33,685 nt of DNA from Actinomycetota bacterium (GTDB lineage: Bacteria; Actinomycetota; Actinomycetes; Actinomycetales; Microbacteriaceae): contig JAFDWK010000036.1 in assembly GCA_018268515.1 (NCBI GenBank), positions 277 through 33,961 on the forward strand. The letters run 5' to 3'. The position numbers were made by a program, and so were the translations under genes. This document shows positions 360 to 30,947 of the stretch, in pieces; positions within the stretch are counted from its first letter, which is position 1; each line of letters opens with the position of its first letter. Below the pieces are notes generated by a model, which saw only the letters and a program-made list of their open reading frames with translations, was not told where the DNA came from and did no database searches.

Positions 360-1628
360 TCAGGCGCTCTTGCGCTTGCGTGCCAGGACCAGCGTGGGCG
401 GGGCGCCTTCGTCGACGGCAGCGCGGGTCACGACGACCTTCTGCACGTCCTCGGTCGAGGGGATCTCGAACATGATCGGGCCGAGCACGTCCTCCAGGAT
501 CGCGCGGAGCCCGCGTGCACCGGTCTTGCGTTCGACGGCGAGATCCGCGATCGACTCCAGGGCGTCGTCCTCGAACTCGAGCTCCACCCCGTCGAGCTGG
601 AACATGCGCTGGTACTGCTTGACCAGGGCGTTGCGTGGACCGGTGAGGATGTCGATGAGGGCCGCCTGATCGAGCGGCGTGACCGACGCGACCACTGGAA
701 GACGGCCGATGAACTCGGGGATGAGGCCGAACTTGTGCAGATCCTCCGGGAGCACCTCGCTGAACAGATCCAGATCCTTGCCCTTGTCGTGCAGAGGCGC
801 TCCGAATCCGACGCCGTGCTTGCCGACACGCGCAGAGATGATGTCCTCGAGGCCCGCGAACGCGCCGGCGACGATGAACAGCACGTTCGTGGTGTCGATC
901 TGCAGGAACTCCTGATGCGGATGCTTGCGACCACCCTGCGGCGGCACCGACGCGACCGTGCCTTCCAGGATCTTCAGCAGCGCCTGCTGCACGCCCTCAC
1001 CCGACACGTCGCGCGTGATCGAGGGGTTCTCCGCCTTGCGCGCGATCTTGTCGACCTCGTCGATGTAGATGATGCCCTGCTCGGCGCGCTTGACGTCGTA
1101 GTCCGCGGCCTGGATGAGCTTGAGGAGGATGTTCTCCACATCCTCGCCGACATACCCCGCCTCGGTGAGGGCTGTGGCATCGGCCACGGCGAAGGGCACG
1201 TTCAGGCGCTTCGCCAGGGTCTGCGCGAGATAGGTCTTGCCGCAGCCCGTGGGCCCGATCATCAGGATGTTGCTCTTGGCGATCTCGATCTCGTCGGCCT
1301 TCTGCTCGGCCGGCTGCAGCGTGCCACGGGCGCGCACGCGCTTGTAGTGGTTGTACACGGCGACCGCGAGGGCGCGCTTGGCCTGGTCCTGCCCGACGAC
1401 GTACTCCTCGAGGAAGGAGAAGATCTCGCGGGGCTTGGGCAGGTCGAACTCGGCGACCTCGCCGTTCGCCGACTCCGCCATCCGCTCTTCGATGATCTCG
1501 TTGCAGAGCTCGACGCACTCGTCGCAGATGTACACGCCGGGGCCGGCGATGAGCTGCTGGACCTGCTTCTGGCTCTTGCCGCAGAATGAGCACTTGAACA
1601 GGTCGGCGCTCTCACCGATGCGTGCCAT
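360..1628 (-). CDS. clpX: ATP-dependent Clp protease ATP-binding subunit ClpX
   Basis: AAA+ unfoldase that forms a hexamer, selects substrates and threads them into the ClpP chamber in the cytoplasm. The 422-aa protein has the normal length. The N-terminal C4 zinc-binding domain is visible as C13-x2-C16 and C35-x2-C38. Walker A is GPTGCGKT at 125-132 and Walker B IIYIDE at 186-191. The pore loop GYVG is at 158-161, the RKH loop at 234-236 and an IGF-type ClpP-docking loop (VGF) at 273-275. The ATG has a strong GAAGGAGGA ribosome site about 6 nt upstream. Unlike the common clpP-clpX order, clpX is separated from clpP2 by about 4.5 kb of deoxyribose genes. It therefore needs its own promoter, and a candidate lies at 1719-1744. 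Confidence 0.98.
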
Positions 1629-1718: not shown

Positions 1719-1744
1719 AGCCTAACCGCTGCATCCGACATCGG
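1719..1744 (-). promoter_or_regulatory. clpX promoter with CCGATGTC-N12-TAGGCT motif
   Basis: On the minus strand CCGATGTC (1737-1744) is followed by 12 nt and TAGGCT (1719-1724), a good actinobacterial -10 box. This would give a leader of about 84 nt before the clpX ATG. The same octamer and spacing occur upstream of uvrA and uvrB. The geometry fits the mycobacterial RecA-NDp/PafBC element (TTGTCRGTG-N8-TANNNT), although the half after TGTC is only partly conserved (TGTCGGAT). The assignment is inferred from sequence alone. Confidence 0.5.
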
Positions 1745-13346: not shown

Positions 13347-14563
13347 CCGAGGACCTCCAGTCCGGGAAGCTTCTTTCCTTCGAGGAACTCGAGGCTCGCG
13401 CCTCCGCCCGTCGAGATGTGACCGAACTGGTCATCCGCGAAACCGAGCTGGCGCACGGCTGCGGCGGAGTCGCCGCCGCCCACGACGCTCAGGCCGTCGG
13501 TCTCGGTCAGCGCCTGCGCGACGGCCTTGGTGCCGGCGGCGAACGCCGGGAACTCGAACACGCCCATCGGCCCGTTCCAGAACACGGTCCTGGATCCGCG
13601 GATCGCGTCCGCGAAACGCGCCGCGGTGTCGGGGCCGATGTCGAGCCCGATGCCCGCGGCGCCGAACGACGTCGCCTCGATCGCATCGGCGGCGGCCACC
13701 TCGTGCGCCGCATCGGCGGCGAACGACGCCGCCACGACCACGTCGGTGGGGAGCACGAGCTCCACGCCGCGCTCGGCCGCCTCGGCGATGTACCCGCGCA
13801 CGGTGTCGAGCTGGTCCTTCTCCAGCAGGCTGGACGCGACCGCGTGACCCTGCGCCGCGAGGAACGTGAACAGCATGCCGCCGCCGACGAGCAGGCGGTC
13901 CACCCGCGGCAGCAGATGCGAGATCACGCCGAGCTTGTCGGAGACCTTGGATCCGCCGAGCACGACCGTATAGGGGCGCTCGGGGTTCTCGGTGAGACGG
14001 TCGAGCACGGTCAGCTCGGCTTCGATGAGCAGTCCGGCCGCGGACGGCAGGATCTGCGCGAGGTCGTAGACGCTGGCCTGCTTGCGGTGCACGACGCCGA
14101 ACCCGTCGGAGACGAGCGCGTCGCCGAGGGCGGCGAGCTGCTCGGCGAAGGCGCGGCGCTCCGCGTCGTCCTTCGAGGTCTCCCCCGAGTTGAAGCGGAG
14201 GTTCTCGAGCACCACGACGCCGCCGGGCTGCAGGGCCGCGACCGTCTCCTGCGCCGAGGCGCCGACGGTGTCCGCCGCGAACGCGACCGGCTGCCCGAGC
14301 AGCTCGCCCAGGCGCGCCGCGACGGGCGCCAGGCTGTACTGCGGGTCGGGGGTGCCCTCAGGACGACCGAGGTGGGAGCACACGATCACGCGGGCCCCCT
14401 GGTCGATGAGGGCCTTGAGGGTCGGCACCGACGCGCGAACGCGGCCATCGTCCGTGATGATCCCGTCCCGGAGCGGGACATTGAGATCACAACGGACGAT
14501 GACGCGCGTTCCGTCGAGCGACCCGACCGATTCCTTCAGGGATTCGAGGGTGCGCAGAGTCAT
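13337..14563 (-). CDS. pgk: phosphoglycerate kinase
   Basis: Transfers the acyl phosphate of 1,3-bisphosphoglycerate to ADP, giving ATP and 3-phosphoglycerate. The 408-aa protein has the substrate motif VRCDLNVP (23-30), SHLGRP (63-68), GGSKVSDK (203-210), NGPMGVFE (330-337) and the nucleotide-binding GGGDSAAA (362-369). Length is typical. It begins 10 nt after the gap stop without a terminator between, and overlaps tpiA by 10 nt, so the three form one operon. Confidence 0.98.
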
Positions 14564-14573
14564 GGATATGAGC

Positions 14574-15678
<1,105 letters not shown>

Positions 15679-15684
15679 CATCTT

Positions 15685-16311
15685 TTACGACAGTACCAGC
15701 AGTCCGCTGGTCTTCTCGCGCGCTGTGACGAAGCGCTGAGCGACGTTCTCCCAGTTCGCGATGTTCCACGCCGCCTTGACGTAATCCGCCTTGACGTTCA
15801 GGTAGTCCAGGTAGAACGCGTGCTCCCACATGTCCAGCTGGAACAGCGGCACCGTGCCCTGCGCGGTGTTGCCCTGCTGGTCGAACAGCTGCTGGATGAT
15901 GAGGCGGGCGCCGATCGGATCCCAGCTCAGCACCGACCAGCCCGAACCCTGGATGCCCATGGCCGCCGCGGTGAAGTGCGCCTGGAACTTCTCGAAGGAT
16001 CCGAAGAACTCGTCGATGGCCGCCTTCAGCTCGCCCTCGGGCTGGCCGCCGCCGTTCGGCGACAGGTTCGTCCAGAAGATCGAGTGGTTGACGTGCCCGC
16101 CGAGGTTGAACGCGAGGTCCTTCTCGAGCTTGTTCACGTTCGCGAGGTTGCCGCTCTCGCGCGCCTCGGCCAGCGCGTCGAGCGCTGCGTTCGCACCGGC
16201 GACGTAGGCGGCGTGGTGCTTGTCATGGTGCAGTTCCATGATCTTGCCGCTGATATGCGGCTCGAGGGCCGCGAAGTCGTAAGGAAGGTCGGGCAGCGTG
16301 TAGGTCGCCAT
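15685..16311 (-). CDS. superoxide dismutase (Fe/Mn family)
   Basis: Converts superoxide to oxygen and hydrogen peroxide. The 208-aa protein starts MATYTLPDLPYD. The metal ligands are His28 (ELHHDKHH), His76 (GGHVNHSIFW), Asp160 and His164 (LDMWEHAFYLDY). QGSGW at 121-125 resembles mycobacterial enzymes. Fe or Mn use cannot be decided from these residues, so no sodA/sodB symbol is given. No signal peptide is present. An in-frame TTG 15 nt upstream is a less likely start. It is monocistronic, between whiA and gap. Confidence 0.95.
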   Translation of the reverse strand: MATYTLPDLPYDFAALEPHISGKIMELHHDKHHAAYVAGANAALDALAEARESGNLANVNKLEKDLAFNLGGHVNHSIFWTNLSPNGGGQPEGELKAAIDEFFGSFEKFQAHFTAAAMGIQGSGWSVLSWDPIGARLIIQQLFDQQGNTAQGTVPLFQLDMWEHAFYLDYLNVKADYVKAAWNIANWENVAQRFVTAREKTSGLLVLS

Positions 16312-16460
16312 GTCGATGTCATCCAATCCGCACCGCGCTCGCGGCGCTTGCCGGTCCCCCGAAGCGCGGTGTGCGCCCGGGGCGGACGTCTCTCATCCTA
16401 ATGACGGCAACGCGCGGATCGTCCGGATCCTTCCGGATGTGACGCCTTCACGGACGGGGT

Positions 16461-16483
16461 CCGGGCGTGTTTCCACGACCCGG
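16461..16483 (-). terminator. candidate terminator after whiA
   Basis: CCGGGCGTG (16461-16469) pairs with CACGACCCGG (16474-16483) with one bulged base, giving a GAAA tetraloop on the minus strand. It lies 23 nt after the whiA stop. Confidence 0.55.
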
Positions 16484-16506
16484 AAGAATCGCCCCCGCAC
16501 AGCGAC

Positions 16507-17484
16507 TCAGACGTCGAGACCGGCGGGCACGGCCGCATCGGTTCCGGGGATGCCCTCGGACTGCGCGCGCTTGTCCGCCATCGCCAGAAGGCGGCGGATC
16601 CGGCCGGCGACGGCGTCCTTGGTGAGAGGCGGGTCGGCGTGGTGGCCGAGTTCGTCGAGGCTCGCATCGCGATGCGCGAGCCGCAGCGCGCCGGCGGTGC
16701 GCAGGTGCTCGGGGACGTCTTCGCCGAGGATCTCCAGCGCGCGCTCGACGCGGGCACAGGCGGCGACGGCCGCCTGCGCGGAACGGCGCAGGTTCGCATC
16801 GTCGAAGTTCACCAGCCGGTTGACGCCGGCGCGAACCTCGCGGCGCTGACGCATCTCCTCCCAGACCGCGGCGGTCTTCGTCGCGCCCATGAGCGAGAGC
16901 ACCGCGCGGATCCCCTCCGGCTCGCGGATCACGACGCGGGGCATGCCGCGAACCTCACGGGCCTTCGCGGCGATCCCGATGCGGTGCGCCGCGCCGACGA
17001 GCGCCATGGCCGCCTCGGAGGACGGGCAGGCGACCTCGAGCACGGCCGAGCGACCCGGCTCGCTGAGCGAGCCCGCGGCGAGGAACGCGCCGCGCCAGAG
17101 CCCCGCGAGCTCTTCGCGCGATCCGGTGGTCAGGCGGTTCGGCAGTCCGCGCACCGGGCGACGACGCTGGTCGAGCAGGCCCGTCTGGCGGGCGAGCGTC
17201 TCGCCGGCGGCGATCACACGCACGGCGTACTTGGCGCCGTCGTGGCCGGAGGCACCCTGGATCGGGGCGATCTCGGGGCGCACGCCGAAGAGCTCGGCGA
17301 GGTCGCGAGCGACGCGACGCGCGAGCAGCTCCGCATCCACCTCCGCCTCGACCGCGATGCGGTTGGCGATCTGGTGCAGCCCCCCGGCGAACCTCAGCAC
17401 CGCCGTCACCTCCGCGACGCGCACCGTCGGGGGTGCGTTCCGGATGCTGACGAGCTCGGCCTTGACGTCGGTGGTGAGTGCCAC
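16507..17484 (-). CDS. whiA: DNA-binding protein WhiA
   Basis: Conserved Gram-positive DNA-binding protein; in Streptomyces it is a sporulation regulator and in non-sporulating bacteria it affects cell division. The 325-aa protein has an N-terminal LAGLIDADG-like region containing [11 protein letters not shown] (130-140). The C-terminal helix-turn-helix spans about 275-300 ([18 protein letters not shown]). The GTG start ([11 protein letters not shown]) has AAGGAGA upstream; a longer frame to 17523 lacks support. It follows rapZ by 86 nt, a gap with a GC-rich inverted repeat. The yvcK gene common between rapZ and whiA is absent. Confidence 0.95.
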
Positions 17485-17535
17485 GGGTCTCCTTCTCACG
17501 GGCGGCGCCGGATCTCGGCGCAAGGGATCAGCTTA

Positions 17536-17564
17536 CCCGGCCCCGGCGCACTGCACCGGCCGGG
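17536..17564 (-). terminator. GC-rich inverted repeat between rapZ and whiA
   Basis: CCCGGCC (17536-17542) can pair with GGCCGGG (17558-17564), starting 6 nt after the rapZ stop. It may attenuate read-through into whiA. The sequence is so GC-rich that chance pairing is possible. Confidence 0.3.
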
Positions 17565-17570
17565 CCGGCG

Positions 17571-18440
17571 TCACTCGCGCCCGAGATCGCGGTGCCGGAC
17601 GGTCACGGCGACCCCCGGCACCTGTCCCAGCCTGGCCGCGAGCTCCTCGACCATCGCGACCGAGCGGTGCTTGCCGCCCGTGCAGCCGATGGCGACCATC
17701 GAGTGGCTCTTGTTCTCGCGCTGGTATCCCTCCAGCACCGGACGCAGCGCGGCCGTGTACGCGTCGAGGAACTCCTGCGCCCCGTCGCGGGTGAGCACGT
17801 AGTCGCGCACCTCGGCGTCCAGACCTGTGGAGCCGCGCAGCTCGTCGATCCAGAACGGGTTGGGCAGGAAGCGCATGTCGGCGACGAGATCCGCATCCGA
17901 TGGCAGCCCGTACTTGAACCCGAAGCTCATCACGGTGAGCTTGTGCCGGGCGGCCCCCTCCTCGGCGAAGACCTCGTTCACCTTGGTGACGAGCTGATGC
18001 ACGTTGAAGTTCGAGGTGTCGATGACGATGTCGGCGGCCTCGCGCAATCCCGCGACCCGGGTGCGCTCGGAGCGGATGCCATCGAGCAGCGTGCCGTCGC
18101 CTTGCAGCGGGTGGGGGCGCCGCACCGACTCGAACCGTCGCACGAGAACGTCATCGGAGGCGTCGAGGAAGACGACCTGCACCGATCCGTGCTCGCGCAG
18201 CGCCCGCGCCACCCCGGGGAATCCGTCGAAGAGATCGCGCCCGCGCACGTCCACGACGGCGGCCACCTTGGGCAGAGCCGCACCACCGAGATTGGCGAGA
18301 TCGAGCAGCGGGCGGAGCATCTGGGGCGGCAGGTTGTCGACCACGTACCAGCCCAGGTCCTCGAGCGCGTTCGCGACGGTCGAGCGCCCCGCGCCCGACA
18401 TCCCGGTGACGATCAGGAACTCACCCGCCTCGGCGCTCAT
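17571..18440 (-). CDS. rapZ: RapZ-family P-loop nucleotide-binding protein (YvcJ)
   Basis: Conserved nucleotide-binding protein. The E. coli homologue is an RNA adaptor controlling glucosamine-6-phosphate synthesis; the actinobacterial role is unclear. The 289-aa protein has the P-loop GMSGAGRST (13-21), with Arg in place of the usual Walker Lys, as I recall from mycobacterial homologues too. YVVDNLPP (32-39), DVRGRD (64-69) and C-terminal GCTGGKHRSV (252-261) are family hallmarks. GAGGAGAG precedes the ATG. It starts 27 nt after uvrC, in a probable uvrA-uvrC-rapZ-whiA operon. Confidence 0.95.
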   Translation of the reverse strand: MSAEAGEFLIVTGMSGAGRSTVANALEDLGWYVVDNLPPQMLRPLLDLANLGGAALPKVAAVVDVRGRDLFDGFPGVARALREHGSVQVVFLDASDDVLVRRFESVRRPHPLQGDGTLLDGIRSERTRVAGLREAADIVIDTSNFNVHQLVTKVNEVFAEEGAARHKLTVMSFGFKYGLPSDADLVADMRFLPNPFWIDELRGSTGLDAEVRDYVLTRDGAQEFLDAYTAALRPVLEGYQRENKSHSMVAIGCTGGKHRSVAMVEELAARLGQVPGVAVTVRHRDLGRE

Positions 18441-18467
18441 CGGCTCTCCTCCTCGCTCGGATCCAGC

Positions 18468-20515
18468 CTAGCCAGATGCCAGGGCTTCCGAGGCATCCGC
18501 ACCGGATCCGGATCCGTCGCCGGCCGTCGAAGGGTACCCCGCACCGGCGGATGGGGCGGCCGAGGATCCGGACGCTGCCGGCCCCGCCGCGGTCGCGGAC
18601 GATCCCGCGAGATGCGCCCTGATCGCCTCCGCCAGGGCCGGTCCGATGCCCGGTACTTCCTGGATCTCGTCGGATCCGGCGCGGCGCAGCGCGGCGACGG
18701 ATCCGAAATGCCGCAGCAGCGTCTTGATCCGGGCCGCACCGAGCCCCGGAACCTCGCCGAGGATCGAGGCGATGTCGCGCCTGCGACGCTTGCGCTGATG
18801 CGTGATCGCGAAGCGGTGCGCCTCGTCGCGCAGGCGCTGCACGAGGTACAGGGCCTCGCTCGTACGCGGCAGGATGACGGGGTACTCCTCCCCCGGCGGC
18901 CAGAGCTCTTCCAGGCGCTTCGCGATGCCGCAGAGGCCGATGTCGGTGCGGCCCGCATCGCGCAGCGCGCGCGCCGCGGCCTCGACCTGCGGCTTGCCGC
19001 CGTCGACGATCAGCAGCTGCGGCGGGTACGCGAAGCGCGGCTTCCGGCGCTGCGTCACCACCGGCCCCTGCGGTTCTCCGAGGCCTTCGCCGCCCCGGTC
19101 CTGCGTCGGCTCGCTCTCCGGCTCCTCCGGCGCATCGATGTGCGAGAGCCGGCGGGTGAGCACCTGGTACATCGAGTCGGTGTCGTCGGTGGTCTCGGCG
19201 ATGTTGAACGACCGGTACTGGTCTTTGCGGGGCAGTCCGTCCTCGAACACCACCATCGAGGCGACCACGTTCGTGCCGCCCAGATGCGAGATGTCGTAGC
19301 ACTCGATCCGCAGTGGGGCCTCGTCGAGGCCCAGCGCGTCCTGAAGGTCGGTGAGCGCCTGCGTGCGCGTCGTGTAGTCGCTGGAGCGGCGGGTCTTGTG
19401 CCGGATCAGCGCCTGTTGCGCATTCAGCGTCGCGTTGCGCATGAGCTCGGCCCGCTGGCCGCGCTGCGCGACCGCGATCTCGACCTTCTTGCCGCGGCGC
19501 TCGCGCAGCCACTCCTCGAGCTCCGCCGCGTCGTCGGGCAGCGCCGGCACGAGCACGCGCCGCGGCACCTGGTCGCCGTCGGCCTCGCCGTACACGCGCT
19601 GCAGGATCTGATCCACGAGCTCGGCGCCGGAGATGTCGATCTCCTTGTCGAGCGTGGATGCGCGCACTCCGCGCACGCGGCCCCCGCGGATCACGAAGTG
19701 CTGGATCGCCGCGGACAGCTCGTCCTCGGCGATGCCGAACAGATCCGCGTCCTCGTCCTGCGGGAGCACCAGGGCGCTGCGGCCCAGCACCGCCTCGATC
19801 GAGGCGAGCTGGTCGCGGTACCTCGCCGCGCTCTCGTAGTCCATCGCCGCCGACGCCTCGTGCATGCGCCGGGTCAGGTCGCGGGTGAACCGCTCGTCCC
19901 CGCCCTCCATGAAGGCGATGAAGTCGTCGACCATGGCGCGATGCTCCGCGATGGACACCTTCATGGAGCAGGGGCCGCCGCACTTGCCGATCTGGCCAGG
20001 GAAGCACGGACGCCCGGTCTGCATCGCCTTGCGGTAGCTGGCGTCGCTGCAGGTGCGGATCGGGAACACCTTGATCATCAGGTCGATCGTGTCGTGCACC
20101 GCCCACACCTTGGGGTACGGCCCGAAGTACTTGGCGCCGGGGATCCGCCGATTGCGGGTGACGATCACCCGGGGGGCCTCATCGGCGAGCGTGATCGCCA
20201 GGAACGGATAGGACTTGTCGTCCTTGTAGCGCACGTTGAACGGCGGATCGAACTCCTTGATCCACATGTACTCGAGCTGCAGCGAGTCCACGTCCGTGGG
20301 CACCACGGTCCACTCCACGGACGCGGCCGTGGTGACCATCCGCCGAGTGCGCTCGTGCAGGGTGCGCAGCGGCGCGAAGTAGTTCGACAGCCGCTGACGC
20401 AGGTTCTTCGCCTTGCCGACGTAGAGCACTCGCCCCTGCGCATCGCGGAACCGGTACACGCCGGGGTCGGTCGGGATCTCCCCGGATCTGGGCTTGTACG
20501 GGAGTTCTTCTGCCA

Positions 20516-20516
<1 letters not shown>
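18468..20516 (-). CDS. uvrC: excinuclease ABC subunit UvrC
   Basis: Makes both incisions beside a DNA lesion in nucleotide excision repair. The 682-aa protein has the GIY-YIG nuclease domain (GVY at 19-21, YVG at 32-34). Cys156, Cys171, Cys179 and Cys183 have the spacing of the UvrC iron-sulfur cluster. A UVR motif lies around 208-242. The RNase H-like nuclease includes YDISHLGG (407-414) and VDGGKPQ (504-510), and tandem helix-hairpin-helix motifs span about 585-635. Residues 638-682 are an Ala/Gly/Ser tail of low complexity, not needed in shorter homologues. Its ATG shares one base with the uvrA stop (TGATG), so translation is coupled. Confidence 0.98.
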
Positions 20517-23434
<2,918 letters not shown>

Positions 23435-23466
23435 CCGTCAAGTCTAGGAGCGGCCACAGACATCGG
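23435..23466 (-). promoter_or_regulatory. uvrA damage-type promoter, leaderless
   Basis: On the minus strand CCGATGTC (23459-23466) begins the element, ATGTCTGTG (23455-23463) is followed by 8 nt and TAGACT (23441-23446), then TGACGG and the GTG start. ATGTCTGTG-N8-TAGACT matches the mycobacterial RecA-NDp/PafBC consensus TTGTCRGTG-N8-TANNNT at 7 of 9 motif positions plus the -10. The predicted transcript start falls on or next to the GTG. Confidence 0.65.
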
Positions 23467-23496
23467 ATCCGGAGCAGCTCCTCAGCGCCTCGGCGC

Positions 23497-23513
23497 GGAG
23501 CCGGAGCGGCTCC
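23497..23513 (-). terminator. hairpin after the MoxR operon
   Basis: GGAGCC (23497-23502) pairs with GGCTCC (23508-23513) immediately after the stop of the last operon gene. A related sequence occurs at 23469-23488 (CCGGAGCAGCTCCTCAG). It is short, so termination is uncertain. Confidence 0.4.
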
Positions 23514-24077
23514 TCAGGGCCGAGGATCGGGGCCGGGACGGGCCGCCATCCGAGCCCGGGACGCGGCATCCGGCCCCCACGAGAGACGGAGCGCAAGGGC
23601 GCTCACCCCGGTCAGCACGGCGGCGCCGAGGGGCGCGAGCCAGGCGAAACCCGGTCCGTGCAGCGGCGGCACGGCGAGCACCATGAGCACCGCGACCGAC
23701 TGCGCGATCGCCTGGATCACGAGCAGCCGACGCAGCCCGGGCAGCAGCACCGCCGGACGGATCCGGGAGCGCCAGGGCACGACCCAGGTCCACCCGGCGA
23801 GCAGGTGCGCGAGGTGGATCAGCCCGATGGCGAGGGCCGCACGCCCCGGCGACGGCGGTGTCAGGATCAGCCCGACCGCCATGCAGGCGATGCCCGCCCA
23901 GGCCGCCATCGAGCGCGGGACGACCACGGAGATCAGCGTCGCGGCGCCGGCGATCCACCACCACATCGGGTACGGGTTCAGCAGCAGCACCCCGCCGAAG
24001 ATCATCGCCGCCGCGCAGAGGCGTAGCACCGCACCGGGCACCGATCCCGGTGCCCGCAGCTCATGCGGCCGGCTCAT
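23514..24077 (-). CDS. small multi-pass membrane protein, end of MoxR-DUF58 operon
   Basis: I do not recognise a named family. The 187-aa protein has about five hydrophobic segments (roughly 17-33, 38-53, 57-73, 80-100 and 117-136, with another at 144-163) and basic loops such as RSRIRPA. The C-terminus is a short Arg/Pro-rich tail. The ATG overlaps the DUF58 gene stop by 4 nt (ATGA, 24074-24077), so it is translationally coupled and probably acts with the MoxR/DUF58/DUF4129 proteins at the membrane. No catalytic motif is visible. Confidence 0.75.
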   Translation of the reverse strand: MSRPHELRAPGSVPGAVLRLCAAAMIFGGVLLLNPYPMWWWIAGAATLISVVVPRSMAAWAGIACMAVGLILTPPSPGRAALAIGLIHLAHLLAGWTWVVPWRSRIRPAVLLPGLRRLLVIQAIAQSVAVLMVLAVPPLHGPGFAWLAPLGAAVLTGVSALALRLSWGPDAASRARMAARPGPDPRP

Positions 24078-28845: not shown

Positions 28846-30915
<2,070 letters not shown>

Positions 30916-30921
30916 CCCTCA

Positions 30922-30947
30922 ACACTACGAGGAGCCTGCGACATCGG
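30922..30947 (-). promoter_or_regulatory. uvrB damage-type promoter, leaderless
   Basis: On the minus strand CCGATGTC (30940-30947) is followed by 12 nt and TAGTGT (30922-30927), then TGAGGG and the ATG. In RecA-NDp terms it is ATGTCGCAG-N8-TAGTGT, which keeps TGTC, the purine and the final G. Spacing is identical to uvrA and clpX. Confidence 0.6.

Follow-up and report, generated by a model that had tools for sequence, protein, structure and literature searches.

The uvrA promoter and the genes behind it

We analysed a stretch of 33,685 nucleotides (nt) from contig JAFDWK010000036.1 of assembly GCA_018268515.1, a draft genome of an actinomycetotal bacterium in the family Microbacteriaceae; this whole stretch is called the window below, and the element in question is the promoter of its uvrA gene. 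On the minus strand the order before uvrA is ATGTCTGTG-GCCGCTCC-TAGACT-TGACGG-GTG, i.e., a candidate -26 element of the type that PafB reads in RecA-NDp promoters, an 8-nt spacer, a -10 hexamer, and the start codon. The first-pass annotation of this DNA had described the promoter as a damage motif, eight nucleotides, and a TAGACT ending 6 nt before the GTG, and the sequence agrees with it exactly. The 8-nt spacer with a TANNNT -10 is the layout of a PafBC promoter, and the 6 nt between -10 and start codon fall within the 6–7 nt of leaderless spacing. The transcript is predicted to start at or beside the G of the GTG and would then be leaderless, a word used throughout for what the -10-to-start geometry suggests. 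Conservation among relatives, as judged by reading, sets in at this GTG.

Downstream on the same strand lie uvrC, rapZ, and whiA, separated in this order by gaps of -1, 27, and 47 nt (Table 1). The start of whiA is probably the GTG at 17484, which stands behind GAAGGAG.

Table 1. Positions of promoter elements and genes in the window
Feature	Position	Strand	Basis or remark
-26 element (RecA-NDp, PafB-type) ATGTCTGTG	23455..23463	-	pattern match; whole site 18.6 bits on the recA-trained matrix
Spacer, 8 nt, GCCGCTCC	23447..23454	-	read from the sequence
-10 hexamer TAGACT	23441..23446	-	majority form among 68 aligned uvrA promoters of the same spacing (TA and last T set in advance by the selection pattern)
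Gap TGACGG, 6 nt, -10 to GTG	23435..23440	-	geometry
uvrA GTG start codon	23434..23432	-	sequence
uvrA	20516..23434	-	NF001503 and TIGR00630 above cut-off
uvrC	18468..20516	-	NF001824 above cut-off; ATG shares 1 nt with the uvrA stop
-10-like TAGGCT before rapZ, at the uvrC stop	18465..18470	-	the TAG stop gives three letters
rapZ	17571..18440	-	NF003828 above cut-off
-10-like TAAGCT before whiA	17530..17535	-	sequence
whiA	16507..17484	-	TIGR00647 above cut-off; longest frame to 17523
PafBC-like promoter ATGTCGCAG-GCTCCTCG-TAGTGT	30922..30944	-	6 nt before the uvrB ATG (30915)
uvrB	28846..30915	-	NF003673, 1066.6 bits; Pfam UvrB domains
Partial PafBC-like promoter ATGTCGGAT-N8-TAGGCT before clpX	1719..1741	-	90-nt leader
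clpX (presumed)	360..1628	-	open reading frame; N-terminal 113 amino acids matched in 79/80 genera

The shortened pattern TGTC-N12-TANNNT occurs three times in the window, while shuffled sequences gave 0.36 on average and none of 100 shuffles reached three; the three sites precede uvrA, uvrB, and clpX. The claim that uvrA lacks a LexA box stood as well: no sequence within 250 nt of the GTG comes closer to the SOS box TCGAACNNNNGTTCGA than 4 mismatches, and an SOS matrix trained on recA loci scores -6.8 within 160 nt. A conventional sigma-70 promoter for uvrA was rejected, with no -35/-10-like pair found between 14500 and 24000. We also discarded a hairpin that would insulate uvrA from the gene upstream (fold z-score -0.66, with 46 of 200 shuffles folding equally well).

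The motif in the source genome and across Microbacteriaceae

The source genome is a 3.7-Mb draft in 115 contigs, 96% complete. The genome-wide scan that the first-pass annotation had set as a refuting test found the motif to be commoner than its reversed pattern, which served as control: the strict form TGTCNGTG-N8-TANNNT gave 7 sites against 1, and the relaxed form TGTCNGNG-N8-TANNNT gave 26 against 5. With 5 control sites, a number of chance matches are to be expected among the 26. Ten of the relaxed sites precede genes of repair and replication (recA, uvrA, polA, pcrA, recG, ligA, holB, recF, xthA, and a PcrA-like helicase), nine of them in leaderless geometry, the exception being recA with 105 nt. 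Here, recA was named from its sequence without a profile hidden Markov model (HMM), and the polA, pcrA, recG, and PcrA-like pieces, cut at ~497 amino acids, score below the whole-protein cut-offs. Over all relaxed sites, half (13/26) have a start codon 6–9 nt past the -10 that opens an open reading frame (ORF) of at least 130 amino acids, a count from which an ORF 5 nt past the -10 (L278) and a 108-amino-acid ORF 7 nt past it (L034) were left out. Other genes behind relaxed sites encode a MarR regulator, a RidA-type protein, an alpha/beta hydrolase, a PhoH-PIN protein, an AAA ATPase, and an M4 peptidase.

The same code recurs in the rest of the family. Over 80 genera, the strict motif was found 658 times against 56 for the control, and it exceeded the control in 79 of the 80. 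We read 57 strict-motif sites in eight other genera (all sites of five genera and 2/3, 2/3, and 2/5 of those in the remaining three): 29 have an ORF start 4–9 nt past the -10, in 17 the ORF follows a longer leader, and for 11 the rule accepted no ORF. HMMs named uvrB (L298), dnaX (L295), pcrA (L299), radA (L307), polA (L315), an AlkZ-like glycosylase (L302), and nrdA (L350, with an 84-nt leader) behind these sites, and recA, uvrA, and additional copies of uvrB and dnaX were recognised there by their N-termini. For the pieces L301 and L313, NCBIfam gave no match at 1e-40. FtsK (L291) and Mfd (L301) had been taken as targets by reading only and were dropped, as HMM searches gave no confirmation.

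For a test independent of uvrA itself, a PafBC matrix was trained on 29 recA promoters of different genera, taken from the best 30 of 78 genera with a recA match; one locus (L264) was excluded for a best PafBC match out of register. In all 30 recA loci the best PafBC element departs from its pattern at no more than 1 position and the best SOS box at no more than 2, and the starts of the two lie 83–87 nt apart in 29 of them. The recA of the source genome also carries both. Mycobacterial recA is described as having this two-promoter arrangement (PMC5656591). On this matrix the uvrA site of the window is equalled or exceeded by 4 of 264,718 background segments, which were drawn at every seventh position on both strands of 80 named loci with true promoters kept in.

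Conservation at uvrA was followed in two sets, 77 genera of the family and 79 named loci, with NTGTCNGNN-N7/8-TANNNT within ~170 nt as the motif; G012, G027, and G065 (uvrA N-terminus uncovered or unfetched) and L104 (contig edge) were left out. The nearest named relatives of this uvrA are two metagenome-assembled genomes with 98–99% protein identity, of which the first carries the label Microbacterium and the second only Actinomycetota, followed by Microbacterium species. The motif stands at uvrA in 53/77 genera, 52/79 named loci, and 25 of 26 Microbacterium-like loci, a group of our own making (the window, L040-L062, L068, and L083). Among 105 motif-bearing loci, 68 combine N8 with 6 nt to the in-frame start, 13 combine N7 with 7 nt, and 7 combine N8 with 7 nt; the first two classes therefore share one motif-to-start distance, 20 nt. 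The final G of the NTGTCNGNN-type motif is kept in 96 of the 105. The clade form at uvrA is rTGTCgGnG, its first letter A or G, and the conservation of its columns is partly circular because the pattern that chose the rows fixes TGTC, G7, TA, and T. All 68 loci of the N8 plus 6 nt class open uvrA with GTG and none with ATG.

At the uvrA genes of the family, all four combinations of presence and absence of the PafBC motif and the SOS box occur. Counting SOS boxes at 10 bits or more within 160 nt on the recA-trained SOS matrix, we found a box without the motif in 20 named loci and 7 of the genus set (Leucobacter, Arthrobacter-type genera, Rothia, and others), both elements in 14 and 4, and neither in 7 and 17. 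Nine of the 14 named both-element loci, from Agromyces, Cryobacterium, and Arenivirga, carry boxes that exceed 17 bits, and weak boxes occur at L060 (11.2 bits) and L061 (10.8 bits). The "SOS" box of L042, L044, and L083 (10.6 bits) overlaps the promoter's own -10 and is probably false. In the genus set, L143 and L166 exceed 18 bits and L123 and L135 are weak. An SOS-like GAACTCAAGTTCGA found 100–250 nt upstream in relatives was dismissed as coding sequence, none reaching 10 bits; it reads as the ELKFE-type end of the upstream gene, which was taken as uvrB by eye, without an HMM. Within the Microbacterium range, uvrA of Microbacterium sorbitolivorans and M. gubbeenense lacks the PafBC motif and has an SOS-like box that is weak, at 10.0 bits; at L061 the SOS box overlaps the motif, and at L062 an SOS box of 17.1 bits stands where the motif is gone. 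It is possible that these four loci show steps of a switch between motif and SOS box.

The other two sites of the window are less regular. The uvrB site deviates from the clade motif in its GTG half. The clpX site, before an ORF that we take to be clpX from its sequence, without an HMM, scores 4.5 bits where the matrix threshold is 7.2, and none of the clpX loci of the best 30 of 79 genera reaches that threshold; clpX was therefore rejected as a full PafBC target. Among the 27 clpX loci having TAGGCT (within L353-L382), TGTC stands at PafBC spacing in 20 and TGTCNGNG in 6. Of the element, the clpX promoters conserve no more than TGTC at the proper spacing, a half-element.

Several further observations touch on the reach of the motif. 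An alpha/beta hydrolase with a similar N-terminus stands behind leaderless PafBC-type promoters in three genera (L031, L326, and L348), and a MarR-type regulator does so in two (L035 and L322), with HMM naming for L031 and L035 only; both are candidates for new damage-response genes. Upstream of the genome's own recA (L034), an ATG 7 nt past the PafBC -10 opens a 108-codon ORF that overlaps the recA start, possibly a leaderless upstream ORF or else a chance frame. Four of the 26 relaxed sites fall on one 30.6-kb contig, C31 (L333 and L334), at 397, 1125, and 7829 on the plus strand and 27134 on the minus strand, where 0.21 would be expected (Poisson p 7e-5, computed post hoc). This contig encodes HmaA, HmaB, HmaC, a HamB-like helicase, a type IIG restriction system, and ShosA-like genes; three of its sites have in common a TATATT followed by a TGTCAAGTCAACTA stretch, which is perhaps a second operator. 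A strict PafBC-type site also precedes an ORF near the end of contig C85 (positions 247-268; L033 and L335), and this ORF reads, by eye and without an HMM, like a restriction-modification methylase.

The regulator, the proposed mechanism, and its competitors

The source genome has pafB and pafC side by side, overlapping by one base (L038). Both products contain WYL and WCX domains, and PafC also has HTH_PafC; the helix-turn-helix (HTH) of PafB, without a Pfam match, is supported by matches to 6sj9 and 7p5x. The pair matches the solved Arthrobacter and mycobacterial PafBC chains 6sj9, 7p5x, and 9fnd. The genome also encodes LexA. A search for the Pup ligase (PF03136) gave no match in the genome, and pafA, the mark of a pupylation-coupled PafBC circuit, was accordingly not found; because the genome is 96% complete, this is no proof of absence. 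In a control search over 14 genomes, PF03136 matched in one, Corynebacterium glutamicum.

The elements and their spacing, the genome-wide enrichment, the conservation, the presence of pafBC, and the lack of an SOS box at uvrA together indicate that the site is very probably a PafBC-dependent promoter of RecA-NDp type that makes a leaderless uvrA-uvrC mRNA. How it would work is carried over from mycobacteria, including binding, start site, induction by damage, and activation by single-stranded DNA. PMC11804915 describes PafBC, activated by single-stranded DNA, as joining RNA polymerase, with PafB touching the -26 motif and PafC touching sigma domain 4. By this analogy, DNA damage would expose single-stranded DNA, which would be bound by the WYL domains of the PafB-PafC heterodimer. 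The heterodimer would then join an RNA polymerase that has the housekeeping sigma factor bound; PafB would read the -26 element ATGTCTGTG and PafC would stand in for the absent -35 contact. The polymerase would open the DNA at TAGACT and start at or beside the GTG, so that the leaderless mRNA would cover uvrA and the overlapping uvrC, with rapZ and whiA served by internal promoters of their own and reached by read-through at most.

A number of observations weigh against this interpretation. Against TTGTCRGTG-N8-TANNNT, the RecA-NDp consensus of mycobacteria, the uvrA site has 2 mismatches (A for T at position 1 and T for R at position 6). The window holds 3 matches at that level where shuffles average 0.5, with at least 3 in 1 of 100 shuffles; since such matches also arise in shuffles, the consensus match alone is weak and near chance. 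The motif is absent near uvrA in 24/77 genera (in two of which, G028 and G055, it lies farther upstream) and in 27/79 named loci, including the Microbacterium-labelled L062, L078, and L110. It is missing in 12 of the 61 genera with a strong PafC match and present in three genera whose PafC match is below 100 bits (in G009, PafC is in pieces). The association of motif and PafC given below ignores kinship, and the genome encodes a second HTH-WYL-WCX protein (L039). The weak consensus match becomes strong because of its context, i.e., the enrichment, the repair targets, the recA-trained matrix, and the conservation. These, with pafB-pafC, back the earlier claim of a PafBC-type, LexA-independent, leaderless uvrA promoter.

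How far the damage response would extend is a separate matter. The first-pass annotation had suggested that rapZ and whiA come under damage control. In that case the uvrA-uvrC-rapZ-whiA unit would be induced as a whole, and RapZ, an RNase adaptor, and WhiA, a regulator, would increase along with repair. The tight linkage behind this claim held: 72 of the 80 named loci have this gene order (in the remaining 8 the stretch covered shows fewer of these genes), gaps are short, and no terminator-like site was found on the coding strand within 14500–24000. Six Arthrobacter-type and Rothia loci have 0.8–1.5 kb between uvrA and uvrC, and four uvrC-rapZ gaps of about -870 were discarded as stop-search artefacts. 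The claim itself is weakened by the -10-like hexamers inside the unit. In Microbacterium-like loci, TA(A/G)G(C/G)T precedes rapZ in 24/26, whiA in 25/26, and uvrC in 0/26, where simple letter shuffles gave means of 1.1 for rapZ and 1.4 for whiA; these counts are inflated because the rapZ hexamer, and in some species that of whiA, overlaps the TAG stop of the preceding gene. In the wider family, the hexamer precedes rapZ in 47/72, whiA in 28/72, and uvrC in 0/73. No PafBC element was found in the stretches before rapZ and whiA of Microbacterium-like loci. Because the hexamers are conserved before rapZ and whiA and lacking before uvrC, these two genes probably have promoters of their own, with read-through at most. 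With the hexamers read as promoters, we keep uvrA-uvrC as the damage unit and hold induction of all four genes to be rather unlikely.

Among explanations of the promoter itself, it is improbable that the motif is read in Microbacteriaceae by some other regulator, be it a ClgR-like factor or a different WYL protein like L039, even with L039 encoded in the genome and with ClgR discussed at the same mycobacterial promoter class (PMC5656591). The uvrA motif tracks PafC: among the genera whose PafC match reaches 150 bits, 49 of 61 have it, as do 4 of 16 below that value (Fisher p 6e-5, kinship ignored). Little probability is also left to an ordinary leaderless promoter used constitutively by the housekeeping sigma factor, in which only TAGACT would function and TGTCTGTG would be due to chance or ancestry. 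A TAGACT 6 nt before the start is enough for a leaderless start in actinobacteria, and the weakness of the consensus match taken alone would suit such a promoter, but TGTC-NG-NG recurs at fixed spacing before repair genes, the motif is kept at uvrA in more than half of the genera, and a matrix learnt from recA alone picks out the uvrA site. That uvrA is an SOS gene on which LexA acts through a divergent box is hardly credible, since the box searches, within 250 nt and within 160 nt, found none at the uvrA of the window, for all that lexA and an SOS box at recA are present in the genome and SOS-like boxes stand at uvrA of Leucobacter, Arthrobacter-type genera, and others.

Comparison with known damage-response systems

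PafBC control of uvrA has already been reported for mycobacteria; what is fresh here is that SOS box and PafBC motif exchange places at uvrA, that the format is leaderless, and that a Pup ligase was not found. Our search of open-access literature returned nothing linking PafBC with Microbacteri-, and a search on LexA, DNA damage response, and promoter motif returned nothing mentioning Micrococcales; PafBC and leaderless occur together in a paper on a mycobacterial proteome and in one on Streptomyces AfsR. The experimental PafBC work that we located deals with mycobacteria, apart from the structure of an Arthrobacter protein. Across Microbacteriaceae this promoter code marks a predicted repair regulon that is sizeable and often leaderless, with at least one genome where the Pup ligase was not found. 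As a tentative proposal, which we would not yet bet on, PafBC may by itself run excision repair of Microbacterium type (uvrA-uvrC and uvrB), with no direct LexA control and no pupylation, and sister genera may rely on LexA alone or on both regulators. The two would then be inputs that can stand in for each other and have been exchanged at one gene, and the -26 element would also have been taken up by a phage-defence island (the Hma system on C31). If true, this would link phage-defence genes to DNA damage. The uvrA genes of the family form a natural promoter set, with the PafBC motif only, both elements, the SOS box only, or neither, which makes it testable when two damage sensors replace each other.

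The closest known relatives of the uvrA promoter are the mycobacterial PafBC/RecA-NDp (P1) promoters, e.g., recA P1, which are alike in the TGTC-RGTG-type -26 element, the 8-nt spacer, the TANNNT -10, and the lack of a -35, as well as in genomic pafB and pafC and in repair genes as targets. They differ in that the clade form at uvrA here is rTGTCgGnG, that half of the 26 sites in the source genome are leaderless by geometry, and that the Pup ligase was not found in this 96% complete genome. According to PMC8223512, RecA-NDp promoters extend to other Actinobacteria, and mycobacterial uvrA and uvrC are under PafBC and SOS control; the uvrA of the window would share the PafBC control, but it has no SOS box and is joined to uvrC-rapZ-whiA. 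In Streptomyces venezuelae, uvrA is likewise under damage-response control in an actinobacterium, but there it is bound by LexA, and in an initial search the M. smegmatis PafBC motif appeared unconserved in that species (PMC9380542). The six Arthrobacter-type and Rothia uvrA loci covered (L113, L114, and L116-L119) lack the motif and carry SOS-like boxes. The Arthrobacter aurescens PafBC (6SJ9; PMC6789036) is an orthologous HTH-WYL-WCX regulator, a natural fusion in that organism and encoded by separate pafB and pafC genes here.
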